Positions 470 to 29,300 of a stretch of DNA of 64,000 nucleotides are shown piece by piece (the stretch's first letter is position 1; each line of letters opens with the position of its first letter). The notes beneath the pieces were generated by a model. That model was not told where the DNA came from and did not search any database. It was given only the letters and a program-made list of their open reading frames with translations. The translations under genes were made by a program, and so were the position numbers. Source of the stretch: Halichondria panicea (lineage: Eukaryota; Porifera; Demospongiae; Suberitida; Halichondriidae); contig NC_087380.1 in the NCBI RefSeq assembly GCF_963675165.1, forward strand, positions 5,898,071 to 5,962,070, read 5' to 3'.

Positions 470-3400
470 ATGGCCACTTGGAGTGTCCTCTTGTTAGCGC
501 TTGTCTTGAGCACTGCTCTAAGGCTGGGTCAAAGTGAGTTCACAGATCCTGAGCAAATAGCCATTGCTGCAACTGGTAAGTGTCTTTTTAGCTAGATCTC
601 TATAGTCGCTGTTTATATATAGGGCTAGGGATAATGCAATGATGGTGTCATGAGAATGTAAGCAAGGCTTATAGGTAATTCTGTCCAGCTAGCATCTGTG
701 CATCTGTATGAGGTAGACTACGATGTATACCTCCATCGCTATAGAATGTAAATATGGAAATTGTACAGACTCCTACTCGGGAATCGTGGTTACATGGGTG
801 ACCTTTAACCGGACAGAGACCTCAGAAGTGCAGTATGGTATCCATAGCGACAAGACGGACCTGTCCAAGACTGCAAAGGGAGATACCACAAAGTTTGTAG
901 TGGGAGACGTGAATCGCTTCATTCACAGGACCACTCTCAGAAATCTGGTTCCACTAGCGAAGTACGGTGAGTGTTGCACTATTAATTGTTCATTTTGGTC
1001 CCCCCAAAGACACCACCTCTAGTGATGTACTATCATTATCGTGGTGTGTGTTCTATTATGACAGAGACCACTCAACAACGTTCCTACAGGAAATATTCCT
1101 TACACTCTGGTCATATGTAAAGTTATACCTTCCTCACAAGCCAACATTTACAATAGGGTTTCTTGCATGCAGGATTTTTAGCTGGGAGGGGGAAATGTTT
1201 AATTGAGGATTCGGAGGACCCCAGAATTTTTGTTGAGGAACGGTTATCTTTGGTGCAACTTGGGTTTTGTATAAACCATTACATTTATATAGTTCGAAAA
1301 AAAAATCATACATTTTGTCATGACATAATTTAATTTCTAGGGGAATCGAATCCCAGGGCACCCCCCCTCCTCCTGATAACTAAATTTGTAACTGTACATC
1401 CTACAATGCTCAGTAGATATGGACACATTCAATGACATTGTATACTACAGACTACAGATGTGGCTCCCCTGCCAACTGGAGTCAGGTGCTCACTCTGAGA
1501 ACCCTGGGAGACCATACCTCGTCCCCTACGCTGGCATTCTATGGTGACTTTGGACTGGAGAATGCTCGCTCCCTCCCCTGGCTCATTGACGATGTTAATA
1601 GAGAACGGTTTGATGCTGTACTGCATGCAGGGGACATGGCATACAACTTATTCAATGTGAGGATTGTTGAGTAACAAAAATTGATGGTTGAATGTTTGAT
1701 AGAACGACTGCCTACCTTGAAGTTACATACACTGTTGACTTACAGCAGACGTTCAGTTTCATGTACCTTGCAACACATACACGAACGTGAAACATGAAAC
1801 CACAATGTATAAGCTGTGGTTACTGAAATGTGGACCCTTGTATACTTTGCACTGTACACTGCAGTACCTTTATCAGTGGTATCCTAGCTGCATGTCCAGT
1901 GGTGTATATAGGAACCAGGGGCTGCAGCCCCCCTTCAGTTTTGGTGCATGCACTGCAACGCTACATGCCTGCTATTTTTAGTCAAGCTCAATGGAATCAA
2001 AGAATCAAGCTTTAGTTGTCCAGGAAACACGCAAATAACAATACCTGCCTAAGAATCAATCCCAGAGCATGCAAAATAGAACTTGTCTTGGGTCAGGGTA
2101 CTTCCATATGTGCCCACAGGCGTATCAGATCTCCCTCTAACCTCTTTCTATGCCACCATGCTGTCGACTTGTTCACATTCAAATTGCTAGCTATTAGCCT
2201 GTATTATAGACCAAGTGCACACCTCTGGTACACCATTCTCCATCGCATGTCTGTGGAGTAGGCCTTTCTGCAACCTTATAGCTGCTAGAGATCTATAGTA
2301 CACAACAACACTGGCCAATTTGATTTGCAAATTTGCCGATTCCAAGAAACTGTTTGAGTAGTCCTGCATGTTTACATTGTGGTTTACCTATGTGGTGCAA
2401 TATGCAATCTTCTGGGTAAATTGGCTGTAACCACAGTTGTAACGATTATGAATATCATTAATCAGTAGTCACATGCAGTAATGTTGCTTCTCTTCCCCTG
2501 GGATACCACACTGACACTGTTACTAAGCAATAGAGCATCTAATTATAATAATTTATATAGCGAAACTCATAAAATTATGTACATAAACTGGGTCAAAGTC
2601 AACGAATAATACACACCATTCTCCATTGAATATATGGAGCTGTAGTTTGAGGGCTGTGCTAAAGTCATTACAGTGGTGTACAGTGTAACTTTCAAAACTG
2701 TAGTGAGCATGCTTAATGATATTTATAATCATATCGTTACCGTGGTTACAGCCAATTCAGAATATTGCAAGTTTTAAAGTTAAAATGTCTTGTAAAGCTG
2801 TAGCATGTACAACTGCCTCTCTTCTTGATTGACATAGTCTTAGCTATAAGTACTGGCGGATTACGTCAACCAATAATTATATTCTTCAATTGAGCAATTG
2901 TAAAAGAATTCACTTCATACATCTAGTATTTCTCTGGTATTTGTGCAGGATGAAGGTAGAGTGGGGGATGATTTCATGAACCAGATACAAGATGTGGCTT
3001 CACGGGTACCGTACATGGTTGCCCCTGGCAACCACGAGTGGCTCGAGTAAGTCGTTCCCTTGAGTGTGATAACTCGTTAACCCTGCCCCCTCACCTTGCA
3101 GTAACTTCACTCACTACATTCATCGGTTCAGTATGCCCGGGAACAAGGAGGGACTCATGTACAGGTGGGTGTGGCTATAATTGACATAATTATTGACGGC
3201 ATTCTTTTGTTAGTAAACTACAAACAGTATACGTTTTCTCCAGAATTAATGATTTGCAATGCTGTGTAGTGTACTCATAATTTATATAGAACTAAAGTGA
3301 TGCACGATCTACACTCTATGTAAAGTAGTCTCTCACAACCACACCCCTTGCCCCCCCCCTCTACTCAGTTGGACGGTAGGTCCAGTACGAGTTATCAGCT

Positions 3401-5843
3401 TCAACACGGAGTTTTACTTTTTCCTGTGGTATGGCGTAGACCTTATAAAGTGGCAGTACCAGTGGCTAGAGGAGCAGCTGGCAATGGCCAACACACCCGA
3501 GGAGAGGAACAAACATCCCTGGATAATTACTATCGCTCATCATCCCATGTACTGCACCACTATTGACGAAGATGATTGTGACCATTACAACAGTGTGGTA
3601 TGTGTGTGGTGTATCTATGGACAGTGGGAGTGTGATAATTAATTGTTATGATATGAAAGCGTACTTTCACATAACGCTGTGATAGTGCATGATTAAAGCG
3701 GTCACTCGATAAAGTATTAGGAATGTGCAACAGTTTGCAATAATTGGTGCTTATTTTATGCACGTTCTTTTATCACTCTGGAAATAAATAATTACGGCAG
3801 TCCAGAGAGTTCACAGGGTTTACATTCACTAAAGGACAGTACAAATGACCTTCGCTAATAGAGGGTTGACCTTCGCTAGTGGAGAGTTCTCCTTCGCTAG
3901 TGGGCGATTGAGCTTCGCTAGTAGAGAGTTCATGTACGCTAGATCTATTATATACTTTTAATACAATAATTCGTGCATGTTCTACTCTAGGGATGTTGGG
4001 TAGAATTCAATCAAACTGTACCCAGAATAAAAGTCCACCAACTGAACAGCCCTAGAGTTGGAACATGTGCAGTATCAACCTATAACTAGATCAACGTACA
4101 TACTTGTAGCTAGACACAATGAATATTGACAATGGAATTTTTGAAGCTCTTTTATCACTCTGGCCACAAAAAATAGCTGCATGCGCGTAATAAGTAGAAA
4201 CTTCCAAGTAAGCAAAACTAGAGAACAAGATTTAGTTTGCAAATCCACGAGTCAATATCCAAGAAAAAGTGGCTAGAAGCCGCTATATGACTTGCATTTG
4301 CATTGCAACGGTATATATAGAACAGTTACATCAGTATAACAAACACACACACACACACACACACACTACCGTATACCTCGCTGTGCAGATGCCCTCTGAG
4401 GCATAATGATACATGCAGTGTTCACATTCAGTGCCCATATTGATCAATAGTTGTATGCTTCCTTATTGTATTTGACTGCCTACATGCAGGTGAGAGTTGG
4501 CGAGCCAACAGTGCACAAGTTTGGACTGGAAAATCTATTCTACAAATATGGTGTGTTCCGAGCGTGTGTTTGTGCATATGCTGATCTACTTGTGAATCAT
4601 GATTCGGGAATGACTGTATTTATTCTTCCCTTTCTGCAGGAGTGGACATTGAGTTGTGGGGTCATGAGCACATCTACGAACGATTTTGGCCTCTCTACGA
4701 CTTCACAGTGAGCTCCCTCTTAACCTTAACCTGCCAGCTTCATTCATAATAATTATGTGCACAATTGAGACCAAAATATTTATCGCCCATTCACATACAC
4801 AATTAATTGTTGCGGAAGTCTCTGAACCCACTGTACCCACTGCGCTCTTTACCACAGGTGTACAATGGCTCCCTGGACGCTCCCTACACTGACCCAAAGG
4901 CACCCATTCACATTGTGTCAGGATCAGCCGTGAGTTGACCGTAGAGTCCAGCTCCTATGTAGTTGTCCAGCAAATAGTGGCGTATTTTATAGGCATTCAA
5001 TTACAAATCCATGTTTAAGTAAATAATCTCGACTGTTGTGACTAACTCAAGTTAATGTTTCACCACAAATAACTGTGTGCTAACTTTTCCCCCCGAATGT
5101 TATTCATCCACTCAGGGTTGCCGTGAAAAACACGCTGGGTTCCAAAAGGAGCAACCTGATTGGATGGCATTCAGAAGCGAAGACTATGGCTATAGTAGGA
5201 TTAAAGTATATAACCACACTCATGTCACAGTGGAACAGATCAGTGCCGATCAGGTAGGTGGGTGGGTGGAGCTAACATGTACTGAGGGCACTGGGTGGAA
5301 AGTTCGATCCACCTAAGTATTAACTTTCAGCCAGAAACTGAGTTAGTTGAGTTATACATGTAGTACCGTGTGGCGTTGTAGAATCTATCAATGTCCTTCT
5401 CCACATGCATGCGCTCTATCTATAAAAAATCAGCAATGTGCTGTAGTCCAGTGTTTCCCATAAAGCAGGAAAGCAGGGCAATGCGCCCCCCCTTTACCAC
5501 AAAATAGGTGTGTATGTGGCTTTTAGAACTGATGCCGTACCAACCCCTGAGCCGCTCTATACCGCTTAGGCCCTCATCTTTTTCCCAGTCCCTCTACTTA
5601 TATACTTTTCTTTGGGGGAACACTGGCAGCATGTTTACTTCTAATAATTTTTATGTGTATCATAAATTCATAATTATGTTACTAAACACACGTTATAATT
5701 ATATTAATTAAGCTAAGCAATGTAAACCAATTAATAGTAGTACGACTATTTTTACCTACACACTAACTTTCTCGTTTCTACAGGATGGCACTGTTATTGA
5801 CAAGTTCACCATCATCAAACACTACCATGGACCCTACAATTGA
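470..5843 (+). CDS. ACP7: Secreted purple acid phosphatase (metallophosphoesterase), 11 exons
   Basis: Exons: 470-575, 769-966, 1451-1656, 2949-3046, 3102-3164, 3369-3597, 4490-4550, 4640-4707, 4858-4929, 5116-5253, 5784-5843 (stop TGA). They join in frame to 432 residues. The start ATG at 470 opens a hydrophobic signal peptide (LLLALVLSTAL). An N-terminal Fn3-like PAP domain (IVVTWVTFN) is followed by the metallophosphatase domain with all five metal-site blocks: GDFG (Asp134), GDMAY (162-166), GNHE (197-200), IAHHPMY and GHEH. The family hydrolyses phosphomonoesters at acid pH with a binuclear Fe-Fe/Zn/Mn centre, secreted or lysosomal. The order and spacing match animal ACP7-type enzymes. 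Introns carry a hairpin element (about 2395-2775), a 21-bp minisatellite and a CA-repeat module. The 3' end is copied in decayed form near 23.06 kb. Confidence 0.93.
2395..2775. mobile_element. Inverted-repeat element (MITE-like) in phosphatase intron 3
   Basis: The left arm at about 2400-2459 (around ttggctgtaaccac) is nearly the reverse complement of the right arm at 2715-2772 (around gtggttacagccaa). The arms are about 55 bp and the whole unit about 375 bp, with no coding capacity. This is the usual form of a non-autonomous DNA transposon. Confidence 0.6.
3847..3930. repeat. 21-bp minisatellite, four units
   Basis: Four successive 21-bp units share the core cttcgctagtagagagtt with a few substitutions each; a fifth truncated copy follows to about 3942. 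It lies inside phosphatase intron 6. Confidence 0.75.
4339..4410. repeat. CA microsatellite joined to a short palindromic module
   Basis: A run of AC dinucleotides (about 4339-4368) is followed at once by ctaccgtatacctcgc and then gaggcataatga. The same order recurs at 13727-13782 and, more diverged, at 8320-8405. Confidence 0.55.
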
Positions 5844-6530
5844 TTAAGTTGTTCGAAGAAATGAACGGCAAATAAATTATTCATTAATAATTATTATTAT
5901 TGAAGTTGTCTACTCATCAAACTTGTTTTCAATATCTTGCAATAATTAAGTCGAATTAATGGAGCTATATAGAAGTTCGTTCACTACTACTAAACAATTA
6001 TACGTAATTATAACTAGTTCACCAAGTGTTCATAATATTGTTTGCTAGGGCCCCTCCCTCCACCCCTGGCCAGCTCGGAGATCCCTGGCCTTCTTGAGCC
6101 ACGCCTCCAGCATTGCAACAAAAACTCTTCTCGGTATTACAGTGATTCGTCTCTCTGATCGATACTCTGCATAAAAAACAAATTAAGTGCAGAAAGATTA
6201 GAATGTAAATTAACCAATTATGATCCCCTCAATCAATTCACCTGACGCAGTTAATACCACATGCACTTACGTCACCACTAATTGATCTCATTGGTCAACA
6301 GCTGTAGGATATATCACAATTTTATCCCAATACCATTTTAATATGTGCATCTGCAGCCATGCATGACATGAATATTTATCTACCTGATTGAGCTCGTCTA
6401 TAATATCAACTTGACATCTTGGAACAAAATACCTAATGATGCATAACCATGTCCAAAAATAAAAATAATTATAGAGGCCGGGGCTAATGAATGAATTGTC
6501 AAAGGTTGACTAAAAAAGTTTTAAACGTGT
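5844..6530. other. Phosphatase 3' flank plus decayed death-domain exon copy
   Basis: This gap separates the convergent ends of the phosphatase and the death-domain/Roc gene. Positions 6051-6180 on the minus strand resemble the last exon of the latter (6531-6701), including the stretch FVAML, but the frame is broken soon after. The rest is AT-rich with no gene seen. Confidence 0.55.
6051..6180 (-). pseudogene. Degenerate copy of the terminal death-domain exon
   Basis: The reverse complement aligns with the intact exon at 6531-6701 over the part encoding FVAMLNAWFRKGSPSW, but indels shift the frame and a TAG appears. It sits directly downstream of the intact exon, so it is most simply a tandem exon duplicate that decayed. 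Confidence 0.6.
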
Positions 6531-8275
6531 TCAAGCTAAAAATTCTTTCTCGATATCGTCAGCTAGGTCCCCCCTCTCCACCCCGGGACCTCTCAAAGCC
6601 TCCACCATGTCCAACCAGCTCGGAGATCCCTTCCTGAACCAGGCATTCAGCATTGCAACAAAGCACTCATCCACACGACCATTGTGGGACCTTTGTACAC
6701 TCTGCACATAAAAAAAAACTATAATAATAGACAGAAAAAGAATGCATATTATTATAGAATTGTGTAGTGGAGACTGACACTTTACAAAGCTAGTTAAGCT
6801 TGCACCAATGCAGGCTAATGCAGGCTATAACCTATTGATTTACAAATACCAAGAGTTCATTAGGAAGAGTACGCAACTCCAATTAAAACCGTAGTAGGCA
6901 TCCAACCTACGTCATAACCACATGCTGTTGTATAACCGGCTGTGAAATCAAATTTGCAATGATTAGTTATTCATTTAGGCAATGAACCGATTAAACGCCC
7001 TCCTTTATTAAACACCCATCTCGTTTAAACGCCCATGGTAAAAGCTGTCTTTGTCAATAAATTCCCATCTTAAATAATCGCCCATGTATGGGGCGTGGCA
7101 CTGTGGGTGGAGCTGAAGTAGTACGTGGAACCAGTTGCAAGCGTGGCAACATAGAATAATAGGTTATGATGGCCAATTAAAAAGAGAGATTTAAAAAGAG
7201 AGATGACACAGAGGGAGAATTAAACACCACTCCTACGACTTAAGATATAAGCTGAGAGCTGTGGCAGCAGCCAAGAATAGTATAATAACTGCTGCTGTGC
7301 AAGAGTTTGAAGTAGACATAACAATAAACATCCGTTTCGAATAAGCGCCCATCTCGTTTAAACAGGAGATAAATGCCGGGCGTTTATACGGTAGTTACTA
7401 ATTTTATTCATTACCTTTCCTACTAGTTGCAGTTACAATAGTGAGTATCAGTGACATAGGTCAGACAGAATGTCGTTTATGTACAGTCTAATGGAGTTGG
7501 GTACTCTTCCTCTTGCATATACAGTGGCGGATCCAGGGGGAGATCCCAGGGTGCCACAGATCCCCCCTTTCAGTCTAGCTATTATGGCTTTACTACAGCT
7601 ACCAGCTATAGCTATTTATCAGTTTTTGTAGCTATTGTACTTTGATTCAATGATTGTACCTGTTGTTTTGATGTATCACAACTGCCAAAGAAGTGTTCAA
7701 AATCAATGGTTAGCCTATATATAGGCTAGCTAGTTGACTGTTCGTGGCAGCTAGCTAGCTCTACGCAAGCCTATCATAGGACTTCCCCTGGCTGAGAATG
7801 GGACTTTCCCTAGTCTTACTGCACAATGTGTGACCGAAAGTGGGCGTAATCCCCCCAAAAATAGGTGCTGCGCGCTCGTTAGTTTGAATCTCCCTTTCAT
7901 TTTTCCTGGATCCACCACTGATATACGTATATGTAACACAGTTAGTTCAATACTCACTTCAATAGTTCCGTCGTCCACATCCAAGTTAATGGCCAGGTGG
8001 TCCCACTTTGCACGAACAGTCCAAGTAGCATCTTTGACAGTCTTGAGAGTTATTTCACCACCTGTAGCTGTGGCCTTACCTGAATTAAAATGCATGGTTT
8101 GCTTTAAATCAAGGATACAAACCAATTGCAAATAGTTATTGTAAAAAAACATGTCGAGAACAAAATAAGAGGTACACTGATGCATAATAATTATACAATT
8201 AACTGTTGATTTTCGTCGCATTGCAACCGTTGAGCAGTTACAGCTGGAACAGACACGCATGCACGCAAGCACACA

Positions 8276-8308
<33 letters not shown>

Positions 8309-11300
8309 CACACACACGCACGCACGCACGCGTGCACACACACACACACACACACACAGTCAGCTTTACCGTATCCCTCGTGCGGCTATGCCTCGATGCA
8401 TATAATTAAGCAATGGACATTAAAAAACATGCATGCTTCACACAGAATTGTCAATACTTACTGATACTTCTCAAGCAGTGGTGTACTTTGAAGCAGAGCT
8501 GCTTGTTCTTGGATACTTCACATGTGTAGAACCCATCGCAATGATCCCTCGTCACTTTGTCCATAGTGAGTTCGCTATCCAATGATCCACACGCCACTTT
8601 TTTACCTTTCCAGGTCCACCTAAAGGAGAGGTTTGAATCAGGGTCAGCAAATGGCAGGGCATAAAGAACAGCTTCCTCATCCAGCTCAACTTCCTAGAAA
8701 AAGAACACACATATTTTAATAACATGTACATACATGTACACATGTAAAACACAGTACATGCATGCATGGGGCATGACAAACAATTAAATGCTCCTAACAC
8801 ATGCCTTTGCTGGACTATAGCGTTAAATTAGCATACAGTATAATATGCACATGTACATACACTGATCAGAAGCTATAATTATTCATACCATTGCAAACCA
8901 GCACTCCTGATGGGGTGGTAGACTGTCAACACGGCCGTGCTCACATCGAAACAAGGGGTTGCGTCCTTCCAGCTTGCACAGACACACGTCCTCAGCTTTT
9001 TGATGCTTTGGGCACTGACAATCGAATGCAGTAATCGGCTCGATCTTCTTGCTAATTCCGCTCATCACATACAGAACAGTAGTCAGCACATAGGAGCAGA
9101 GATCATGCATGTCACAATCTTCATGTCTTTTGATTCGAATCTCGTAACAGTTGGCGTGAGCTACCAGCGTGATGTGGTGTTTGGCACTATCGACTTCAAA
9201 AGAGACCAGATTTCTCATCACTCGAGATTCTCGCAGATCCCATTTCAGCCCCAAAATTCCTTTTTGTCCTTCGGAAACCAACTTGCTGATCATGGCACAG
9301 AAGACACCAATGGGCACATAGCCAGACTTGAAGGTGATCTTGATTGGAGAAGGTGTGTTGGAGTCGATGGTTGGACTATTTGAGAGCTCTTCCTTTGAGG
9401 CACACTCGAGGATAGCTGGCATGAAGTAGAGTGGCCGGGGACCTTTACCAAATATAGGTGCAAGGAGACTGACATGCTCAAGCAACTTCACAAGCTTGTC
9501 GACCGGGATCAAATCACCTTCCTTCACTTTTGCCTTGTTTGACTTGGAACAGCAGCGTTTAATCGTAGCACTAGAAAATTGCCCAAATTCTTGCCATTTC
9601 TTGATCTCGGCGGTGGTGAAGCGAGACTTCCTATCGGATGAGTGTAGAGATAGAAGAGATTCGACAATCAAGAGACTGATGCTGTTGAAGACAACGTTGG
9701 GGCAGCAGATGACACAGTTTTTGAAGTAAGCGTCGATGTCAGGGTAGTAGAGAAGAGCCCCCACACAATGGTGCAAATACCAAATGGTGAATTTCACTTC
9801 AGCTTCATCCATATTCAATGCTTTGCCAATCTGAATACACTCTTCCATCGTCGCAATTTCAAACTCTTTTCTCAGAATTACCCCAAAAAGGAGCTGTACA
9901 GGGCGAATCGGGAGTTCGGCATCTTCGAAAAATGAGTCAAACACTGTTTGAAGGTGCTCACGAATTGGACCAATGTCAGCATCTGTGCCATTGAAGTTGT
10001 CCACAGAGAAAAAGTGCTTGTTATCTGGGTGGTTGATGACGTCACCAAAATTTGAGGTGATGATGGACAAGGCTTCGTGCTTATCTTGGAGTTTTTCCTG
10101 CAAACGCTTCTCAGTATCGGCTTGAATGGTAGAATCTGTGCTCAATTGATGAACAACTGCACTTGCTAGCTTGGAGAGGGTTTCGTTACATTGCTTCATC
10201 TGAAGGGAAAGTTGAATAGCTTTGGGTGTGCTCTGTTTCAATCTGTTTTCAATTTCAGGGGGTAGAGTTTTTTCGAGAAATTCAACTATGTTTTGCTCTT
10301 TGGTATTGTCTTGTGTTTTCTGCTGTGGTTTAGTAGCAGCCTTCACTTTTGCTTTTTGCTCCATATGCTTCTCCATGTCTTTTAAAAAGGAATCCAATTC
10401 AAGCTGCTTGCCAATCTCTGCCTCTAATACAGAAAATACATCCTCCACCTTCTTCTGCTCAGATTCAACTTCTTGTTGCACCTTCAGAATCAGCTGTATC
10501 GCAGCTCCCAAGGTGATTGCGTCAAGACCGGGGTAATCCCCCTTGAGCTTTGCCTGAACGACTTCTGCATTGGCTTGAACTTCCAACTTGTCTTGGTAAG
10601 TGCCCACTAGACTCACGACAGCCTGAAGATCTCGGAATTGTTTAACTTTATCGGTAACCACGGAATCAAGATCCGAATCAACTGTGACGTGATGGCTGAT
10701 GGCTGAAAGAATTTGGGAGAGCGTCTCTCGAATTGTGTACTTTGCTTCGTAGGGAGTGATTTTGTCTTGGTCACGTTCGTAGGAAACTTCATAGAGTTCG
10801 TCAAGGTCTTTATCGAGCGGAAAAAAGGCGAGAAACATCCCTGGGCCTTTGCTCAAAAATGGAAGCATCTCCATGAAGCCGGGCTGTCCACCTATGTCAA
10901 TGATGTTGAGCAAAACGTTGCCTACCAACTGTTCAATGTAATTGCCTCGCTTGACAATATCTCGAAGGTTTTCAACGATCTTGTCGACCTTGGTTTCTGG
11001 AGCCTTTGGTTTGGCTGGCTTGCTTGTTCCTTCCTGGGAAACTTGTTTTGTTTCAGAATCTTCTTTTGGCTTTGAATCATCAATGGGATCATTCGTTGGA
11101 TCAGCAGATTCAACTACAGTTTTGGAAACAGCAGTATTTAGAACTTGCTGAAAGCCAATCAAGTAAGCAAAAATCAGTTGTGCTTCCTTGTCAATATCTG
11201 TGGAGGCTTTGAGAATCAATTTGGAGTCACTTGACACAGCCAGGACTTGATTACACTCGGCAAGAAGAGTGCTGCAGCGTTTTCTGTCTTGTGGTGGGAT

Positions 11301-14300
11301 TGATGCCAGGTTGGGTAGGAGACCCAGCAGACGTTTTCGGAAGGTGGTTTTACCGAGTCCTGAAAGGCCGATTAGGTACAGTTTGAGGTAGCGAAGGTTG
11401 ATGGTGTTCTTTTTATCTCTCAGCAACTCGTTCAGCTTGTGTAGGTATTTCAACTGCTCCTGAACAGAGGCTGAAAGTAAAAAGAGTTGAACAACTTTTT
11501 TTGACAACAATATACGTACATACATTTAAAAAACTGCAGAGATAATTATAGCTATATATGAGGTATAATTAAACTTCTGAATGAACTTCGTTGATGACAT
11601 ATGTAAAGTGCATACAACATTTAAAGTTATATGCCATCATAAATTATTTACATCTTAAAGACAGCCAAACTCAATACTGTAGAAACTGGATTATTAGCGC
11701 ATGCGCTTTTAGGGTCAATAGCAGAGCTCTATACGCTTATATTCGAGAATGCGCCTATAATGCAGTCATTTTGAGCCCCACCCAGCAACCGGATGTCTTT
11801 GCGATGAGAGCTGACTCGCAAGCTGGCTAGAAAGCGAGCAAGCAAGGCAAGCAGGCAACCCTAACTGGATCTATAATGTTACAATTCATTTTACAGTTCA
11901 TTTACATCATTTAATTCATATTGACCAGGAACTTGGAATAAAAGGACCTCATCCATGTCTCACATTCTCTCAGCATGATCAGACAAGGTAACAGTCCTTA
12001 CAGATGGATATCACCAGCTATATAGCTATTATGCACTGTACAAGCTAACTATATAGCTCATAGATAAACAAAATTAGCTGAATCAATTCACTAATAACCT
12101 TCGCATAATTGGAAAGCGCTTCAATTCGAGTATAAAAAGCTTGCAGTTGAGCATGCGCTTAAAATAAAGATAAGCTTATAATCGAATAAGCGCTAATAAT
12201 CCGGTAAGTCATGAATGTAACAGTTGTTTTATTGCCGTATTAAACATTGTGTGCAATACTATAGCTTCTCACCTGCTGTGTCCTTGCTTTCATGCACTGA
12301 GGAGTCTTCACTCTTGATGTACTTGTCCTTAATCTCAGCAGCAATGTCATGGCGCTCAATGCCGGGTGACTCCAGGGCTTCAACCAGATCAGACCAGGTG
12401 GGATTGGGTGAGGACGTGCGCCATTTTCCAAGCATTGCAGTGAAGCGATCTGCTACGGTACGATGGTCCTTCTTAATAGCCTGCATGTTTATATAGAGTG
12501 AAAAATAGATGTGCAACTATTATAATATCACTGATGCAGATGATGAAATGTCTGGTAATACAAAAACAACTTGACAATAATCATTCACAATTTGTAGGAT
12601 CTTTGTGCTATATACATCACATAACACAATTTATTACACAACCAATAGGATTGACAAGAGCGTTTGTAACTTTAGCTTTTACACAACTAGTACAGTACCC
12701 TCGCGAAAATACGCCCACCCTTTTCTGCAAGAAATCTAGACTTATTAGGGGACTGGGCGTTTAATCGCGAACGGCGAGTTTTCATTCGAACATATGCCCA
12801 CCTGCGGCCTCAAATCGAGGTTTACACTTTGCTCTATGACAATTCTTTATTAGTATTTTCATTTTAATACATAGTATGAATATTTTATTGACAACAACAA
12901 TGTTATAAACTAATGCATGAGTATGCATGATTAAAGCATGACAAGAGAATAAACATGAAGAAGTGGACTCTGACTCTATTTGTTGATGTTAGATGTATAT
13001 GTAGCAGAAACTTCTCAAAGGATGGTAGGTCATACTCTTACAGAGCAGAGCTATCAGGTACTTTGTTTCAGAAAACCAAGGCAAGGTAACCTGCAAAATT
13101 AGCCTGTGTGATAACTTTCTTGGACTTGTGTTTTCCTTTCTCAGCATATAGGACTACTTGTTCCCTGCATATACATCTTCAGGGGGCAAACAGATCCATA
13201 CAGGAAAAGTTATAATGTCTGATCTTGGTCCAGCAAGAAGTATAGTCTTACTAGCTACTACCTAAAACTTCCTTTCTTCACTAAACCCTTGTGCAAGAAC
13301 TTCGAAGCAAAAGAGGGGATGGGCGTTTATTCAAGATGGGCTTATTTTCGCGAGGGTGGGTATATTGGTTTTGTAATTAGGATTGTTTGTAGCTTTTTTT
13401 AGCAATGTTTCACCATAGATAAAAGAGGAAGAGGGATTGGAAATGGAAGTGATTCACGTGATGTTTTACATTGAAGTCTATACGTATCCGACTAGAAAAA
13501 CATTTGCAATGTGAAAAATTGCTATAGGATTGGCCAGGGAAACCTCCAAAAAGCGTGGAAACAAGAAATGAGACGAGAGCATAACTCCAATCCGTTACAA
13601 CGTCAATCAACTCGAGAACAAAGCATTATTTTGAATTAAAATCCAAGTAAACATGACTAGAAGCCTATAGAAACTCTTACTTGCATTTTATTGATCCTTG
13701 AGCAGCTGTAGCAGTCTACACAGATACAGACACACACACACTACCGTATACCTCGCTTGCGCATGCGCACCGAGGCATAATGACCCTCTTTTTTGTTTAC
13801 ACATTTTTTGGCCCAGCCATTTCTAAAAATTGTTTACATTGCATATTGTGGTAGGAAAATAAATATAATTATACATTGCGCATAATTATAACTAGAACAC
13901 TAAAGTGCTAACCCTCAATGCAGTTAAAAGCATGGAAGCTGTACGTAGCAAGTAACATGAGCAGTGAAATTCTACAAACCCTTTTCCATTGTTCCTGGTA
14001 CAGGATCACTTCAGGTGTAAAATACGTGCCCCGAATAAAGGACGCCTTTAGCTAGAGGCCATGTAGCCAGCGTGGAATTTCAAGCTTCTTAGCTTTTATT
14101 CGACAACGCGTTAACGAAGCTGCAACTTTTAAAACTAATAACTTGTTGTGTGAAGGCTATCCATGTTGTAAACGCAGCGCCATGGCACCCAGGTGAGTAG
14201 ATTCACATGTCACAAACAAACAAACCAACGGACTACTATACCTGCTGGCCGCAGCACGGCCTCGGGTAATTACACATGCAAGTATATAGTACGTATCCAT

Positions 14301-17300
14301 ATAGATAGTGCTGGGAAACTGTATGCCCTTCAATCACCTGTAGTGTTCTGTATGGTAAGTCCAACTCAAGCCCTACGTCAAACCATTTAGAACGAGAATC
14401 CCACAAGGCAGTTCTCATCATTACTAGCGTGAGGGACCCTGGAAACACACGCAAATAAAGGATAAAGTAGAAGGAGAGATACTCGATTACAATTGTCAGA
14501 TTGCTATCACTCACTTATTGGATCCTTGTTTTCTTGCAATGACGAATCATAACTTTTGATGTATTTGTCTTCAATTTCATAAGCAATGCCAGAACAGCCA
14601 ACAAGCGATGACCTCAGGGCGTCAACTAGAACAGACCAGGTAGGGTTGGGTGATGACTTGAACCATTCTTCAAGCATTGCAGTAAAGTAATCTGCCAGGA
14701 CAGTGTGGTTCTTACGAATAGCCTGCAAGGTAAACACATTATTAATAACTGAATGTATAGGTTTGTGGTCTGGTTCTGATGGTAATAGAGCATAATTATT
14801 ACTATACATATAGGTAACTGTACGTAGCTCTATGCAAGCATGCATTGATCAATCACCTCTAGTGTTTTCTCAGATAGATTCAAAGCAAGCCCCAGCTCAA
14901 ACCACTTAGCACGAGCATCCCACAAGGCAGCTTCCATGCGTGCCCCTTGAAGTGTAGAAAACCCTGGAGGTGCAGTAAAGTCGTGATATTGCAGTGCATC
15001 GACAGTATTAATAAGGCAGGTTTCAGGACTTTCAGAATATTCATGCATGCATGTGTTATCATACTCACTAGAGCTTTCTGTGTCCTTGCTTTCTTGCACT
15101 GAGGAGTCATCACTCTTGATGTAGTTGTCCTCGATCTCAGCAGCAATATCAGAATGGTTTAGGGACGGTAACCTCAGGGCTTGAACCAGCTGAGACCAGG
15201 TGGGGTTGGATGAACTCATCAGCCATTCTCTAAGCATTGCAGTGAAGCGGTCTGCTACAGTGCGGTGGTCCTTCTTAATAACCTGCATATAGAAGGAAAT
15301 ACGTTAAAATAATACTATTATGTGTATATGTGGTTGGCGTTTTATTAGTGGCCAAGTATATACTATAGACATGCACAGAGAATTGTAAGTCTTGCAACAT
15401 TCATTAGCTGGCATAATTATAAGCAACTGCATGCATGGTATATTCAGTGAATTGAGCACGTACATATACATAATTATAGTGAAAAAACAGGCAGCTTTAC
15501 AAGATACAAGTAAAATAAAACTGCGCAGTTATATTCACAGCGTATACGGATTAAACCGAAAGAGCATGGGAGAGAAAAGAATACTGCATGAGAGAAGGCA
15601 AAAAAAACTTAAAGAAGCTCAGAGGGTACCAATAGAATATAAATGGCAGTGTATAATAAATGATAATGGAAAGACCTGCATGAGAAAATGTGTGCTTTAG
15701 AAAGTCTTCCCTTTTTCAGCATAATTATACTCATACTAAAGGTTACAATGGTGAAATTAAGTCATACAGTCCCTTCCGTGTTACACACGGTCGCGTAGCT
15801 TCGAGGCATGATTATGGTAAAGGACCGTCGTGATATAAAACACATATAGCATTTTTTTGATTGTGTTTTATGCTATACTGTATTTACTTGATTAAACGCC
15901 CGGGCGTGTATCTCCTAGCAAGATCTGTAGAGGGGGCGTTTAAACGAGATGGGTGCTTATTCGAAACAGGCGTTTATTGTTATGTCTACTTCAAACTCTT
16001 GCACAGCAGCAGTTATTATGCTATTCTTGGCTGCTGCCACAGCTCTTAGCTTAAATCTTAAGTAGTGTTTCTCCCTCTGTGCTCTTGGCCATCATAAATA
16101 GTATCTATATTCTATGTTGCCATGCATGCTTGCAACTGCATGGTTCCACGTGCTACTTCAACTCTAACCACCCACATAGGTGCCAACCTCCATGCAAAGA
16201 AAAATTTCCGGGACAAAAAAATGGAGGGGGTTTAGCCCCATTTTGTAAAAACACTTGTGGAGATTTATTATTTCTGCCATGCATGCTCAGTTAATCATGC
16301 TGGAGAGCCCCACCCACAAAACTGCAAAACATTGTTTGATCGTAGTGGTAGACAGACAGCCATAGTGCAGAAACTGAATTCTGTTCATGATTTAAGCTTT
16401 CAAGCCATAGCTTCAGTGTTTTTGAGCTTCTTTGGACTGTATTATCCCAGCTCAGGAGCAGCAATCTTGAAAATCCGGGACATTTCAGGTAAATATATAG
16501 CAATTTCCGGACGGAACACAGGACAGACCCTCTAAATCTGGGACTGTCTCAGGAGTTCCGGGACAGTTTTTTTTTTCTTTTTTTTTTTAACAATTCGGCA
16601 AAGCCAGGATACAATAAAATAGCAGAAGCTAATAAGTTAGTACCCTAAAAAGTTAGCAGTTGGCATCTATGCACCCCATATTTATTATTTAAGATGGGCA
16701 TTTATTGACAAAGACATGCAGCTTTTACCATGGGCGTTTAATCCAAGGAGAGCGTTTAATCAAGTAAATACGGTATAATACAGGTAACTTGCCCTCGGAG
16801 CTTTGCCCGTATGCTTGTGCCTGTATATTTTCGGTATCATGCTAACTCGATCTTTATCACTATCAAGAGTGCATAAAGTGGAATAAGCAGCAGCCCATTT
16901 AAACCCATTGATTGCCGTCCATATAATTACACTATAATTTTATGTGTAAAACTCCCACATCTCAAGTGGCTCAAAACAGTGCGGTTCATTACATATAGAT
17001 TGCGCAAGCACATGAGGTCTCATTGTAGCCTGCCTGTCTAGCCATACATATTATGGTCATGTCAACCCACACAGTTAATTACATTACTACACAAATGTTG
17101 TGATTGCATGATCAGACAACAATGTATAATGGTGTATATAGTATTGAAGTTGTTACTCCCCTTCATGCATGCACTCCTGCTTATTATGTAGCGGGTAATT
17201 TTCGTGGAGTAAATTCGTTATTTTCGTTGGCAAGCTAACCTCCACGAAATTTTCCCCTACGAAAATGTAGGCGTGGCTTACCGGAAAGCATGTAATGCAA

Positions 17301-20300
17301 TGCAGCAGGCAATGAATTTTACTCATAAAAATCACTGTTTTTGAGTTGAACGAATTTTTTACCCCACGAAAATTACCCGCTCTACGGTATATATACTTAC
17401 AGAGTACATGTATGCAGCCATAATTATAGAGAGTGCTGATGGGAGTCTGCATGCATGCCCTTCAATCACCTGTAGTGTTTCGATTGGTAAACTCAACACA
17501 TTCCCCAGACTCATCCATTTAGCACGAGCATCCCACAAGGCAGTTTTCATCTCTCTTAGTGTGAGGGACCCTATAAATGCATGGCGGACAATGCAAAGTG
17601 TTATAAAAAGTAAATTTATGTACCCTATAGCAGGTAATTTTGTGGGGAAAAATATTGTTCTCCCCACAAAAATGTAGGCGTGGCTTACCGGAACACATGC
17701 AATGCAGTGCAAGCAGTGAAATCAAACACAATTCTTACTCATGAAAATCACCGGTTTCGAGTTGAACGAAATTTTTACCCCACGAAAATTACCCGCTTAT
17801 AAGTACGGTATATGTGCACATGCACATACCGTATAGTGTGACATTTTTGAGGGGCTTAATTTTCGCTAATTTCGTGAGTTAGCAATCCTATACACGAAAA
17901 TAAAGTCCACGAAAAATAAATTAGCTATAACGTGCAAAGATTAAAGGCGTGGCTTCCGGTAAGCAGTCATTCCGCGAACATTGTGCAACAAAATGTTTTT
18001 AGAGGCCATGCATTCCACGAAATATAAGTGCCTCGAAAATTTTGCGCTATACGGTAGTGCATGTATCTACAAATTGTATACAACCTTGTTATACTCCAGG
18101 GTAAAGTTCAAAGTAAATAATAATTATTGCAGGACTCTTTGTGTAAATGCATAATTATACTGTATACCATCATATATCTCCTTGGCAACACTGGGAGGGG
18201 GATCGTACTCTACTGTTACGCTGGCTGAAGACTGCATGGGGTAGGAGGGGGTATGAAATGCATGAGTGAGTGTTGAGAACATGTGACTAAAATACAGATT
18301 GTCCGAAGTAAATTATTATTTTTATCAGCAAATTTTTTTAATGTGTTATAATTATGATGATCAGCTAGGGAACACTTTATACTCACTTAGCTGCATGAGC
18401 ATTAGCTCCAATAATTATAGTACCAACACCCTATATAAGCATGCACTGTGAGACAATTGTATACCTTCAGTGACCTTCCCTTCTTGTTCTTTAAGCGCAT
18501 ATATGGTGGGGATCGGTACCTGCCATTTCTGAGACGACCAAGAGATACATCCAATGTGCCTAAAAACCTGTAGAAATTGTAGTCAAAAATAATACTTACA
18601 AATTAATCTCATTAATTGGTGTCAAGAGCTGTAGAATATACATGCATAGAGCATTAAGATACAGGTTTCAAGGTGTTTTTCATTTGTCCAAGAAAGTCAG
18701 CAAACAGAAAGAAGCCATAAGACCCCAAAGCGATGGCCAAATCACAGAAGCTGCTCTGCTCTCCAACAAAATGGCTAAGCCTCAATAGGTCAATGGCATA
18801 GTCTCGCTTTTTTTTGCAGTATATGCATCTTCTTGCATTATGGGGGAGGTCCTCTAGTGCTGCTGTCACATGATATATACACTGTAAAAAATAAAGTGTA
18901 CTCAGCCAGCACACTTCATTTTTACAGTGTATCCGGATATACTACACTCCGTATATCCTCCTCGAAAGTGTGGTATGTCCTATACGTGGATACCCATTAC
19001 ACATAAATTGTATACTATATACATGCACGTATATACACAATGTACTGAGCAATACCAAACATTCTTAATCACAACACTCACGGACTCTTCTTTGCTCCCA
19101 CACTAAATTGACGATACAAGTCAAGCTTGAGTGATTGGGCACCGCTGGTCTGCAAGGGTTCCTTCAGTGGAAATACTAATTCCTGCATTACAAAAGGAAG
19201 TCAAACTGTATTGTAGCAAAAAATGGACACTCCCTCATAGTCTCATGAAAAAATAAATGTGTATAATTATTGCAGGTATATATAATGCATATACATTGCA
19301 TTTGTTAAACGTTCTATTAGTTTATGTTATAGATAGTACATGGGCATGAGGTATCTATGTGTTATATGTGCTTATAATTCCCTGGGAAACTATGAGATTA
19401 TGGCTCATAAATTCCCTGCTAAACACACACAAGTGGGATCTAAGCAATCTTATAGAAACAGTTTCAGTTTCGAGGTTATCAAATCTATCTTATCTAGTTA
19501 AAGTTCGAATTCCTAAGATTATACTGATAATTCATACATAACCGCTCACCTCATTCCACTTACATGTAGGTAGGGTAGACGATATTACGGCCGTCTGTCT
19601 CTCTTCCCCTGTGTATAATTATGCGGTTTACACTACTACAACTGGTACATTTGGATACTCCTCTTAATGTATACTCCAGGTATAGCTAATACAAAAATTT
19701 AACCCACATAATATTATATAGGAAACGGGTTATTCTCGTACAGTGAAAATTTTCGTATTTTTCGTATTGTAGAGCATCATGAAAATTAAAACTGCTATTC
19801 TACCGCAATAGATTGATGAGTTGTACGAATATGAATACGAAATATTTAATTGGCAGTTTGTACAAAAATTACCCGCTATATTATGCGGTATAAGTAAACA
19901 AATTTTCTACACGGCCAAAGAGAAGCTAGACACTTGTTGGCAACGGCAGGACAGATGGGTGGGGCTCGCTAACCTCGTTAATAGTGAGTTGTATGTCTTC
20001 TTCTCTTTTATACGCCATTGCATGGTGCCACTTGAACATTTAAATGATTTTGTTGATTAAATAGACTACCGTAATTAATGTAATTACAGCGCCACTATGA
20101 TTTAAGTGCCACGTCAGCATCAGTATAATTTTTGAGGCCCTAAAAGAAGTGCCTATGCTGTTGCTGTAATTATTTTTTCTGGCACTTCTGTTTGAGTCAT
20201 CAAGACAATCATCCTGCATCTCTACCACACTTCTGTATACATGCGATATGCATGCATGCAGTTAATGAATGTTGTTCACAAGTCAGCTAGCTAGCAAGTG

Positions 20301-20755
20301 AAACGAAGCTAGACCGCGCCCATTTTCTCTAAGATGTCCATACTGTATTAGCTGCAAAACATAAGCGCCACCATAATTTAGACGCCAGCTGGACTGAACG
20401 CAAATTTTTAATGTTCTAAAAGATGCGCTACTCAAAAGTAGAATAAATTTTTCTGGCCCTGTAAATTACGGCATTTCTTCATAGTCTCGCAACATTACTG
20501 CAATAAACAATAAGCAAGCTTTACCTGATTGATTCCATCATTAGCGCAGCAAACAATTTATACATAGTACATACATACACATACATGCACATGCAAATAC
20601 GTAGATTATAATTATATTTAGCTAGGCCTACCTTCAAAGGAAACTTTCACAAAGAAACAATTCTCAGAGAGGGCCTCTCGATCTCCTTGGTCGTAGACAT
20701 CGCGAATATTTGCACTAATTTCCTTCACTCTCAACGCCATCTCCAACGCATACAT
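6531..20755 (-). CDS. C2 - death x3 - Roc GTPase/COR-like - Ig - death domain protein, 15 exons
   Basis: Exons in transcript order: 20755-20632, 19608-19550, 19182-19082, 18567-18465, 18231-18168, 17570-17470, 15282-15069, 14963-14857, 14722-14515, 14438-14338, 12480-12273, 11470-8889, 8693-8462, 8079-7958, 6701-6531 (stop TGA). The chain closes in frame at 1,498 residues; an in-frame ATG at 20740 is an alternative start. Residues 1-150 form a C2-like beta domain (KWNEELVFPL, LDLYRQFSVGAKK). Death domains lie at about 151-255, 256-360, 361-463 and 1402-1498. The large exon holds a P-loop GLSGLGKT (about 498), DIGGQ (about 657) and VGTYQDK, then COR-like LHHCVGALLYYPD and a Cys/His-rich end. 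Residues 1325-1401 are Ig-like (W..., GFYTCEV). There is no signal peptide, so it is probably an intracellular signalling scaffold. Function is inferred from domains only. Confidence 0.85.
6986..7393. mobile_element. Non-autonomous element with aaacgcc termini, copy 1
   Basis: It runs from gattaaacgccc to gggcgtttatacggta and has an inner region shared, inverted, with the element at 15876-16775 (for example tgctgctgtgcaagagtttg). It lies in the last intron of the death-domain/Roc gene and has no meaningful open frame. Confidence 0.65.
7522..7920. mobile_element. MITE with terminal inverted repeat cagtggcggatccag
   Basis: The left end cagtggcggatccagg and right end cctggatccaccactg are inverse copies with one difference. 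The unit is about 400 bp, with no transposase. It ends 37 bp before the splice donor side of the 7958-8079 exon, within the last intron of the death-domain/Roc gene. Confidence 0.8.
8264..8405. repeat. GCAC/CA microsatellite with adjoining palindromic module
   Basis: Repeats of acgc and ac fill about 8264-8359, followed by taccgtatccctcg and cctcgatgcata. This is a diverged form of the module seen at 4339 and 13727. Open frames across it are low-complexity artefacts. Confidence 0.6.
11675..12206. mobile_element. Element with TIR tagaaactggattattagc, copy 1
   Basis: The left end (tactgtagaaactggatt, then attagcgc) and right end (gcgctaataatccggta) are inverse. The body shares sequence with the larger inverted element at 52630-53956, such as the ccggatgtctttgcgatgag region. 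It is intronic in the death-domain/Roc gene. Confidence 0.7.
12695..13362. mobile_element. Element with TIR accctcgcgaaaata
   Basis: Terminal copies taccctcgcgaaaatacg and tattttcgcgagggtggg are inverse of each other. Inner arms continue with cgccc / gggcg. The length is about 670 bp, with no recognisable coding region, inside an intron of the death-domain/Roc gene. Confidence 0.7.
13727..13782. repeat. CA run plus cctcg...cgagg palindrome module
   Basis: A short CA run is followed by ctaccgtatacctcgc, then ttgcgcatgcgcac and cgaggcataatga. The core is a hairpin (cctcg / cgagg around the palindrome tgcgcatgcgca). It matches the module at 4339-4410. Confidence 0.55.
14110..14250. repeat. Dispersed repeat, inverted copy at 22940-23056
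   Basis: The stretch from gcaacttttaaaactaata through ggcacccaggtgagtaga to accaacggactactata reappears as reverse complement at 22940-23056. It contains ATGGCACCCAG followed by a strong donor-like GTGAGT, so it may be an exon/promoter fragment that was duplicated, or part of an uncharacterised element. Confidence 0.55.
15876..16775. mobile_element. Non-autonomous element with aaacgcc termini, copy 2, with nested insert
   Basis: Ends tactgtatttacttgatta and taatcaagtaaatacggta are inverse. Outer parts match 6986-7393 in inverted orientation. The middle (about 16180-16640) is extra sequence bounded by tttccgggacaa and gttccgggacag, suggesting a second element inserted in the first. It is intronic in the death-domain/Roc gene. 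Confidence 0.7.
17189..17389. mobile_element. MITE, tagcgggtaattttcg family, copy 1
   Basis: The ends tagcgggtaattttcgtgg and ccacgaaaattacccgct are inverse. The core includes taggcgtggcttaccgga and gagttgaacgaa, which is shared with the copies at 17621 and 38315. Confidence 0.8.
17621..17810. mobile_element. MITE, tagcgggtaattttcg family, copy 2
   Basis: This is a diverged copy (taccctatagcaggtaattt ... aaaattacccgct ... acggta) with the same core aggcgtggcttaccgga. It ends just upstream, in gene orientation, of the first-half exon of the first death domain. Confidence 0.75.
17827..18055. mobile_element. MITE related to the tagcggg family, distinct core
   Basis: Ends taccgtatagtg and gcgctatacggta are inverse. 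The interior has several cgaaaat/attttcg segments and ggcgtggcttccgg, but otherwise differs from the neighbouring copies. Confidence 0.65.
18654..18870 (-). other. Unassigned coding-like segment in an intron
   Basis: On the minus strand a frame reads ALEDLPHNARRCIYCKKK, then YAIDLLRLSHFVGEQ and GSYGFFLFADFLGQMKN before a stop. The composition is protein-like, with a CIYC pair. It lies in the intron between the exons at 19082-19182 and 18465-18567 of the death-domain/Roc gene, whose frame closes without it. It may be a transposon-derived fragment or an alternative exon; I do not recognise it. Confidence 0.25.
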
Positions 20756-23059: not shown

Positions 23060-23395
23060 TGGCATGGACCCTACAATTAACTTGTTTCAAGAAATGAACG
23101 ACAAATAAATTACTCATTACTTGAAGTTATCAACACATCAAACTTATTCGATATCTTGCAACAATTAAGTAAAAAAAAAGGTTCACTACAGTGACAATTA
23201 TATAAGTAGTAAGTGTTCATAAATTTCCTCTCAATAAATTGTTGGCTAGGGCCCCTCTCTCCACCAGCCCCACGGTCTCTTAAAACCTCTACCATGTCTG
23301 GTCAGCTCGGATACCCCTTCCTGAACCAGGCCTCCATTGAGCATTACAACAAAACACTTTTCGGTGTTATAGTAATGCGTCTCTCTGATACAAAT
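23060..23395. pseudogene. Decayed duplicate of phosphatase 3' end and death-domain exon
   Basis: Starting with atggaccctacaatt, this matches 5826-6180 in the same order and orientation: the last phosphatase codons, its 3' flank (gaaatgaacgacaaataa), then a degenerate minus-strand death-domain exon at about 23247-23395. Indels destroy both frames. The collinearity shows the two parts were copied together. Confidence 0.7.
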
Positions 23396-26345: not shown

Positions 26346-29300
26346 TTAGTGATCTGAAAGGGGAGAACAGTGAGCAGTGATTATACAAAGCAGGCTCACT
26401 GGAAATTAATGAACGTAGAAAGGGCAGAGGAATCCCAGACAGGTTGATAAACAACCGTAACTGTAAGGGTCTGCACAAAGTTATTATACCGATAACACTA
26501 TCATGAAGTAACTACATGCATGACTGCATGTACTTAATGAGTTACCTGATAATCGACAGCTGTCCTTGACCACTTGAATGAGTGTGCTGGAATACCAAGG
26601 TACCATATCCACTGTGCACTCTGCAATGTTATTTTCGTAATCCGATTCTAGTGCTAGCCGGTCCGGATTCACTGTCTGTCGAAGGATGTACCTGCCCGAA
26701 GGCACACCTGTCACATCAATCCACTGACAGTCAAGATGGCTGCCATATCGGTCACCACAGTTCATGGATATGCCCTGAGTACCAGTACCACAGCGATAGC
26801 TACAGAATAGAAAATCATAAAGAATGGTAGTTGCAAAAGGTAAAAAGCAACAATCATGCACACATAATTTATTAGATCATAATCATGGGCTGTGGTTAAT
26901 TTTACTTCTGACACATCGAACAGACCGCAATACAGAAGTATAGCAGTCTCAAATAGATATAGAATTGTAAATGTACGGGTACTGCATGTACTGTTTTGCA
27001 TATTGATGTTTGTATTAACAGTGGAATAGAGCGGAAGAAGAATGGCAACGTGTTTCCACTAGTTATGCACATGCAAGCCAATTATTATCTTTATCACAAT
27101 AATGGATCAGTGTACCTATTCTTTCTCTATATGCTGGTACCCGTTTCACAAAACAGACGACACTATCTATCCTTAGACCAGCTTACCGAGGATAGCTTCC
27201 TCCCTCACAAGTACTGTCCTCCAGACAAAAGCTAGCTTTATGGCCTTCGGCGACTTTATCACCCGTATTTGGGTCAATGAGGTCGTAATGGATGAATGCC
27301 TCAAACGAGTGAAAGTGGTTGTGACAGGAATGCCAAAGCCACTCCCCTCGATTTAGGATGGGCTCAAACGAGGCTGTACCATAGTTCATAGTCTGACTGG
27401 AGAAGCGTAGTAGCATCCTACGTACGTATGTGTGTGTGTGTGAGGGGGAGATTGGGAGTATAACTAAAAATTACATTTGGCAAATGAGCCATTTGAACCG
27501 AGTTGGTATTTTTTTTATATGGCGTCTCAAGCATGGATACTACAGCAATGACGTAGTGTCCACTGGAAAACTTTAATTTGACGAGGTAATTCAAATCGCC
27601 AAATAAAAAATACGCACCAAATTTTCCAGTTATTCGGTATGTATTGTCCTTTATTTGTCAATGAGCAAGGGTGACAACTTACATTGCGTATATCAAAAAA
27701 CAGATGAGCAGGCTCTCTATGCCTGTCAATCAACACCTAATCAAACCAATACACATGCTCCCTCTAGCTCCATTGCACCTTCAAACGAGCGTACCTAGTA
27801 TGATGATTGGGTTTCCCCCTTGCTGAGCTAGACAGACAGTTCTCCTCCCTAGCACAGGTGAGGTAGTAGATAGGTATCTCATGGAGGTAGTAGTTCAGAG
27901 AGTGGCGGAACACCTCCATGTGGGGTACAAGGTCAGGTACACCTGCAGGGAAACATCGAAACAGTTCAGTACATTGACTATAGAATATTGTATTGCATGT
28001 AGCGTACTATACCGAGATTACACCCACCCTAATTGCGTGCTACAAAGCTACAGGTGGGATGGGCTTAATTTCGAAAACGGTAGTTTTGTCTCCTATCCAG
28101 GTGTTTGCCTCGAAATTACGCCACTCATGTATGCCAGCATGGATGAGGTGACCTCTATATGTAACGTGCTCCAGGTAAAAATGTGTTGCTTCACCTTGAT
28201 TAGATAGAAATTGTGGACAAGCTATGAGATTGAAATTCTATGAATGTTCTGCACACACTAAACTTCTTGGGACCAATTTCCCCGCGGACGAGCAAGATGT
28301 GGTTCTACATCATTCACTGTATAAGCACACTCACCTGGCGAACAGTCCAACACAGCCTCCTGATTGATGCATTCCTTAACAGGCAGGCAGAGTCCCAAAC
28401 ACTCATTAAAACTGTCTTCATTACCACTACAGTTCAGCGCACACCAGTACTTGGTTTTGCTTCGATCGCTATGGCTGGCTTTTCGCATACGGAGGACAAA
28501 CATCTCTGAACTCTCTCGACAAATAACAGAGGCTACCTTGGGTTTGATAGAATCGAAGCACATTAAACCCCATCCTTTACTTCCATGCACCTCTACAAAG
28601 TTTGTGGCAATGTAGCCAATGGTGTCCCTTGCAGGTGCAATCTTAGATCCCTGCATGCATATGCAATGAGATGTGTAGTTTAGTTGAACTGTCAGTAACA
28701 AGTACGTACATGTACGTAGAATTGAGGTAGAGTTAAAGTGTAAAATATTAAAAGTGATATTACAGAATTACTAACAAGTACACTGTATAGCTTTGTTAGT
28801 TTAATCTTAATAGCTACAACTTATTCCCTCACTTGTGTCTTTCCACACATTTCTCCTATCTGTGGTGCCCTACACACCACCCCAGCGTCTGCCCCATGAT
28901 TCTGATTATACACTTGTCCCCCAGGGCAGTCTGAGAGGAGCTTCTCTGACCCAATACAGCTGAAATTGAGGAGGGAAGGATTGCTTACAATATAATTATA
29001 TCAATACGTATATTTGGGGTCCCCAGAAAAAGCTAACTAATCTCGCTATTCATAAATAATTGTGAAAGTATACATGAATGCATCGTTATAAAGTACAACA
29101 TCCCATACGCTCATGCAGGATAACTATTAAATGAAGAAATAATAGAACCCAGTATAGAAACTTACTTCAAATGGGAGAAGTGGACCTTCCCCACTCCTCT
29201 GCCGAACGAGCTCCTGTGAGTAGGTTTAACAGCAGAGCCATAACCCAGAGCCCTACAAGCAACACTAGCATCAGCTATGTCCCAGCGAGTGTCAGTGATC

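Follow-up and report, generated by a model that had tools for sequence, protein, structure and literature searches.

A putative Roco-type gene with cassette death domains belongs to a tandemly expanded family in the sponge Halichondria panicea

Structure of the gene

The window analyzed in this work is a stretch of 64,000 nucleotides from the demosponge Halichondria panicea (assembly GCF_963675165.1, contig NC_087380.1, positions 5,898,071 to 5,962,070 of the forward strand), and its main subject is a minus-strand gene at 20755-6531 of this window, which is predicted to encode a C2 domain, three death domains, a Roc-COR GTPase, an Ig-like domain, and a fourth death domain. The gene was rebuilt independently of the first-pass annotation, which yielded the same 15 exons with the same coordinates in a single frame without an internal stop. 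All 15 exons have AG/GT borders, and the introns are up to 2.2 kb long. The coding sequence has a length of 4497 nt, corresponding to 1498 amino acids and the stop codon, and comparison with the paralogues suggests that the second methionine (MALRVKEISA) is the start codon.

The putative C2 domain is spread over five exons, beginning in exon 1 (20632-20755), continuing through exons 2 (19550-19608), 3 (19082-19182), and 4 (18465-18567), and ending with its last strand in exon 5 (18168-18231). Every death domain of the gene consists of two exons. The first and second halves of death domain 1 lie in exons 6 (17470-17570) and 7 (15069-15282), those of death domain 2 in exons 8 (14857-14963) and 9 (14515-14722), and those of death domain 3 in exons 10 (14338-14438) and 11 (12273-12480). 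The long exon 12 (8889-11470) encodes the 861 residues of the Roc-COR GTPase and is followed by exon 13 (8462-8693) with the Ig-like domain, while exons 14 (7958-8079) and 15 (6531-6701) carry the two halves of death domain 4, designated DD4a and DD4b, the latter together with the stop codon. The 59-nt exon 2, which contributes the WNE strand to the C2 domain, had a counterpart in all nine C2 heads examined in a nearby gene array. Two other models were rejected, one in which the frame broke after exon 1, a break that the exon at 19608-19550 closes, and one in which exons 7 and 8 were read through as a single exon, since the splice 15069/14963 yields the two-exon unit seen elsewhere.

Domain composition

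The C2 call was obtained with the Pfam model PF00168, which gave 31.4 bits for the window copy and 27.5 and 27.0 bits for two further copies, so that all three copies scanned were above the cut-off of 22. A profile of five C2 copies also matched the C2A domain of myoferlin (E 7e-4). The Pfam Death model PF00531, applied to the whole protein with exon 2 replaced by X, gave 88.4 bits over four stretches (cut-off 22.6). The fourth death domain alone reached 21.9 bits, just below this cut-off, and aligned with death domain 3 at an E value of 6e-20. Death domain 3 weakly matched PIDD (E 0.11).

The Ig-like call is weaker than the C2 and death calls. The Ig_3 cut-off of 30 was missed by both copies scanned, with 18.5 bits for the window copy and 25.1 bits for a paralogue, and the Ig profile matched Ig domains of the PDB, the best being sidekick (E 0.003), with a weak match to the Ig domain of MALT1 (E 0.11). 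The usual disulfide between strands B and F was not present, as an invariant Ala12 occupied the B-strand cysteine site in 8/8 rows and Cys58 was kept (strands assigned by eye), and the absence of this cysteine would suit a cytosolic Ig fold. Judged by hydropathy alone, no hydrophobic start was found in the 1498-residue protein, and the Pfam scan of the protein with E values of up to 1 returned no match to kinase, ankyrin, NACHT, LRR, paracaspase, or ZU5 domains. Taken together, the Pfam scans and profile comparisons agreed with the domain order that the first-pass annotation had proposed.

A divergent Roc-COR module

The G motifs by which a Roc domain is judged are the P-loop, the DxGG switch, and the T-x-x-D motif of G4. 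All three are intact in the Roc exon of the window, with GLSGLGKT as the P-loop, DIGGQP as the switch, and GTYQD as G4, which is GTHKD, GTFKD, or GTHVD in relatives and is followed by a long insert. The window copy was below the Pfam cut-offs for both Roc (14.9 bits, cut-off 27) and COR-A (15.2-17.3 bits, cut-off 35.3). A relative reached 28.9 bits with COR-A, and a relative on contig C4, which is the contig of the window (C4:5898071-5962070), matched COR-A at an E value of 1e-6.

The genome of 131 Mb in 39 contigs contained 60 COR-A matches, 25 of them above the cut-off. Six genes with COR-A matches were taken for comparison, and four of them made up one profile. A further profile was built from three LRRK-like or other Roco genes of this genome. 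All four members of the former matched COR-A with E values of up to 1, and the first of them passed the cut-offs for Roc (40.7 bits) and COR-A (35.6 bits), while one member of the latter matched LRRK2 at an E value of 1e-12. The window family profile, built from seven sequences, aligned in hhalign with the four-gene profile over 476 columns that begin at the switch motif and reach the end of COR, with a probability of 99.9 and an E value of 6e-36, and with the three LRRK-like or other genes over 148 COR columns, with a probability of 92 and an E value of 5.5e-7. As this alignment with other Roco genes from the genome shows, the central exon is a true, divergent Roc-COR module with COR directly after Roc, and its scores below the Pfam cut-offs are read as a failure of sensitivity and not as a lack of homology. 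What had been a Roc/COR-like guess from motifs was thereby upheld.

Searches of the PDB were dropped as a proof of Roc-COR, since the best match of the single exon by sequence had an E value of only 1.1 and the profile search matched LRRK2 over the P-loop alone (E 0.4). The best PDB match of the family profile was the N-terminal domain of the mitochondrial calcium uniporter of Dictyostelium (5z2i), a weak match (E 0.014) over the COR-A part.

Tandem array and genome-wide family

A genome search with 53 scored among 377 candidates, and hence a lower bound, located 11 tandem Roc exons that belong to the subfamily of the window gene, together with one distant relative, within the 200 kb of C4:6850001-7050000, 0.9 Mb from the window gene. 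A C2 head lay upstream of eight of these 11 Roc exons, with conserved splice phases (by eye). The number of death-domain cassettes between C2 and Roc, also counted by eye, was zero in one gene, two in four genes, three in two, and five in one, whose cassettes are interrupted by a gap of 7.5 kb, so that this copy may represent two partial genes. The Ig and DD4a exons were present in all 11 copies and DD4b in ten, the remaining copy ending in a cassette-type exon. The order of C2, at least one cassette, Roc, Ig, and a further death exon was thus read by eye in 7/11 array copies, including one with a stop in Roc, the one ending in a cassette-type exon, and the one with the 7.5 kb gap.

Genome-wide, at least 93 Roc-COR exons were scored among 261 candidates and 150 death domains among 503, both counts being lower bounds. 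An Ig exon followed on the same strand within 3 kb in 58 of the 93 Roc-COR exons, and within 300 bases in 52 of those, with 0.08 expected by chance. The 50 best-scoring Roc-COR exons all had a downstream Ig exon, and the 35 without one were all among the more distant exons. A death exon lay within 3 kb downstream of at least 58 of the 79 Ig matches, a count that used the matches on family-bearing contigs (97 of 150 in one set and 27 from another with 152 matches). The C2 head had 41 matches in the genome, all on C4. Roc-COR-Ig-death is accordingly the core that is widespread in this branch of the family, to which the C2 head seems to have been added later, on chromosome C4. What had been annotated as a single gene is intact at 20755-6531, and it is one member of a large tandem family.

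Three further observations were made in these searches. Many of the 35 Roc-COR exons without a downstream Ig match are clustered on contig C6 at 3.36-3.67 Mb, apparently as a second branch of the expansion. A Pfam death exon was found within 5 kb on the same strand of 13 of the 60 COR-A matches, forming another set of Roco and death pairs on contigs C28, C1, C10, C6, C7, C8, C4, and C12, which includes several of the top-scoring death domains of the genome. In two array copies, at C4:6884613 and 6875649, a death cassette half begins about 16 bases past the match to the last death exon, which may continue otherwise.

Selection on the death-domain cassettes

Each pre-Roc death domain is an exon pair with phase 1 at both outer borders, so that the reading frame is preserved when a cassette is gained, lost, or skipped. 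Full-length cassette hits without a stop from the array and the window were compared, leaving out three rows of one broken copy and including some cassette-type exons that sit after the last death exon (e.g., C4:7024108 and 6875649/6873828). The 25 first-half exons (22 distinct) had a tree-free ratio of nonsynonymous to synonymous differences (pN/pS) of 1.50 (codon bootstrap 1.04-2.21), with pN > pS in 200/231 pairs, and a maximum-likelihood (ML) omega (dN/dS) of 2.57 (p 4e-8). In the 26 second-half exons, pN exceeded pS in 241 of 325 pairs and the ML omega was 1.74 (p 3.6e-5). With only the cassettes of undamaged genes, the first halves had a pN/pS of 1.64 (1.12-2.50). Earlier subsets comprised 17 first and 19 second halves, or 15 and 18 for undamaged genes. 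Several positions of the second half, including two tryptophans and positions occupied by L, A, and I, were unchanged in 19 copies, and core-type residues of the second halves were less variable than the others (p 0.0002).

By contrast, omega was 0.51 for Roc-COR (10 copies, with two damaged array copies excluded) and 0.50 for DD4b (10 copies), the Ig exon had an omega of 0.64, not clearly below 1 (p 0.051), and two C2 exons had pN/pS values of 0.32 and 0.55. The estimates thus show cassette death domains that change amino acids faster than silent sites next to a conserved Roc-COR and DD4b. The new finding is that the pre-Roc death domains are frame-neutral two-exon cassettes with omega values of 2.6 and 1.7.

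Comparison with known systems

The Roc-COR tandem is shared, by profile homology, with the Roco proteins LRRK1/2, MFHAS1, DAPK1, and bacterial LRR-Roc-COR proteins. Compared with these, the window gene has no kinase, LRR, or ankyrin match (Pfam), and it adds the C2 head, three pre-Roc death cassettes, the insert after G4, and an Ig-like domain placed after COR and ahead of the last death domain. The window protein also falls outside the DAPK class, which combines a kinase and ankyrin repeats with Roc-COR and a death domain. MALT1 and PIDD are cytosolic death-domain proteins, and the likeness to them consists of the two weak matches (E 0.11 each), with no paracaspase, ZU5, or LRR match (Pfam) in the window protein. 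NLRs contain a nucleotide switch, and their LRRs are the usual variable sensor. In the window gene, Roc-COR stands in place of NACHT and no LRR was matched (Pfam), and the variable part of its family is the death domains. The literature comparisons that follow refer to excerpts of the cited papers. Animal NLRs (NACHT-LRR with DEATH or CARD), which are expanded in sponges, share with the window family a death domain and the lineage-specific expansion (PMC12909245).

DAPK1 likewise ends in a death domain; it couples this domain to Roc-COR and forms dimers by way of Roc (PMC6337361). The oligomeric state of MFHAS1 is influenced by nucleotide (PMC6337361). Combinations of Roco with death, TIR, or C2 domains occur in cnidarians and molluscs, and the actiniarian NG3, the Aplysia Roco-MyD88-like, and the oyster TIR_2-GTPase-C2 genes share Roco or its GTPase together with death or C2 domains (PMC5094078; PMC9334734). 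As described there, these genes are TIR-bearing, and those excerpts name no Ig domain, repeated death cassettes, or family of such size. The 357 death-domain/TRADD-N proteins of Amphimedon share one to three N-terminal death-like domains and a great expansion, with ankyrin, SH3-LRR, or other tails, among which the excerpt does not name Roc-COR (PMC8195603). The ROCO genes of brown algae, which were proposed to be immune receptors, share the expansion, exon shuffling, and diversifying selection on one module, which is an LRR exon there and a two-exon death domain in the window family (PMC11378527). The first-pass statement that no described protein with this domain order is known was not contradicted, as no C2-death-Roc-COR-Ig-death protein appeared in searches of open-licence PMC papers, but the general kind, Roco with death, TIR, or C2 domains, is already described in cnidarians and molluscs.

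Proposed function and alternative readings

With about even confidence, we regard the gene as encoding a Roco-type scaffold of the cytosol that belongs to an expanded family and is NLR-like in outline, and the family may be a home-made platform for immune or self-recognition signaling. A more specific reading, which we hold only tentatively, is that of a distinct animal receptor for immune or self-recognition, in which Roc-COR would replace the NACHT switch, the shuffled, hypervariable, and copy-number-variable death domains would be the recognition part, and the conserved C-terminal death domain would pass on the signal. Roco proteins generally follow a nucleotide-dimer cycle. In the broader scaffold reading, the C2 domain would dock the protein at a membrane, the Roc-COR dimer would change its state with the bound nucleotide as in other Roco proteins, and this switch would control the exposure of the death domains. 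The variable death domains would then meet a changing partner, either a microbial or viral mimic of the death fold or the death-domain protein of another individual or allele, and the constant last death domain would recruit a shared adaptor and a caspase or NF-kB pathway. The membrane-recruited, nucleotide-regulated death-fold platform suggested in the first-pass annotation would fit two of the results, namely the tandem expansion and the dN/dS above 1 in the cassettes but not in Roc-COR or DD4b.

A number of points weigh against the scaffold reading. GTPase activity, lipid binding, and binding partners are proposals made from sequence. A stretch of 19 residues at position 1049 exceeds the hydropathy usually taken as the limit for a membrane span, but it is located in COR-A. 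AlphaFold models from single sequences were uninformative, with mean pLDDT values of 36 for the Roc-COR exon and 40 for the Ig exon. Among three distant relatives scanned, the one on contig C6 gave Roc, COR-A, and COR-B in order, the one on contig C2 gave Roc alone, and the one on contig C1 gave neither, all below the cut-offs. In the array, the C2 head is missing from three of the 11 copies, and the Roc exons include a split one and another interrupted by a stop. As to selection, the tree-free pN/pS of the second halves was 1.12 with an interval of 0.83-1.54 that includes 1, and 0.98 (0.73-1.35) in undamaged genes, while core residues of the first halves were not significantly less variable (p 0.23). 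The pN/pS of DD4a was 1.57 (0.72-4.42), so that it is the DD4b exon that sets the last death domain apart from the cassettes. The cassette exons are short, all copies come from one genome, and omega assumes one tree, an assumption broken by cassette shuffling.

The exons could also belong to two neighboring genes, one encoding a C2-death adaptor and the other Roc-COR-Ig-death. Such a division would agree with the widespread core without C2, the array copies lacking the C2 head, the long introns, and an in-frame methionine upstream of the Roc exon, in intron sequence, in 7/11 array copies and the window. Against it, the acceptor before the Roc exon has the same place and phase in all 12 copies (window and 11 array copies), and the exons lying closest upstream belong to death cassettes, whose donors match it in phase. 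The other four array copies have no in-frame methionine upstream of the Roc exon before a stop, and the first methionine within the exon falls after the P-loop in 10/10 copies examined. Moreover, C2 exon 5 terminates in a donor and so cannot end a gene. The Roc exon is therefore best explained as being spliced to an upstream exon, which makes a strong case that the C2/death and Roc-Ig-death exons would form one gene, and we consider the division into two improbable.

If the exons are taken as one gene, its product could still have other roles. The family might consist of DAPK1-like regulators of apoptosis with redundant death domains under neutral birth and death, in which relaxed constraint and cassette recombination, and not recognition, produced the dN/dS values. 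Signs of such turnover are the split Roc exon, the stop in another Roc exon, and one C2 head that is broken. In addition, the tree-free pN/pS of the second halves is compatible with 1, and this genome is very rich in death domains, with 150 scored among 503 candidates. Relaxation, however, would give an omega of about 1 and not 2.6, the tree-free ratio of the first halves and its 200/231 pairs also point the other way, and the Pfam scan found no kinase or ankyrin match; we regard this explanation as possible and somewhat doubtful. A Roco protein of membrane trafficking or signaling unrelated to defense, for example a regulator resembling LRRK whose C2 is of the ferlin type, would account for the myoferlin match of the C2 profile and the LRRK-type similarity of COR. 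Four death domains and a tandem expansion with omega above 1 would be unusual for housekeeping regulators, and this role seems quite unlikely.

Death domains are usually regarded as conserved output adaptors. The present family, as seen in one window and one array, has fast-changing cassette death domains, while both the GTPase and the last death exon are conserved. Should the death domains serve in recognition, the receptor would work on a principle other than LRRs, and the Roco GTPases, to which LRRK2 belongs, would gain a role in innate immunity or allorecognition in an animal from an early branch. The tandem copies and intact genes make the recognition reading directly testable.

Other features of the window

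Two relics resembling exon 15 lie on the minus strand on either side of the gene, one upstream at 23218-23337 (55% identity, E 7e-9) and one downstream at 6019-6228 with a broken frame (by eye). On the plus strand, exons resembling a purple acid phosphatase were found at 717-5316 and a 484-residue open frame resembling a PP2C-type phosphatase at 55610-57064, and the minus strand carries two genes in tandem at 26484-34341 whose exons are of scavenger-receptor (SRCR) and lysyl-oxidase-like type, all of these being assigned by motif only. An open frame of 940 residues at 59458-62280 on the minus strand contains many repeats of about 50 residues around KMAEQRERKNTYPTITLNQ.

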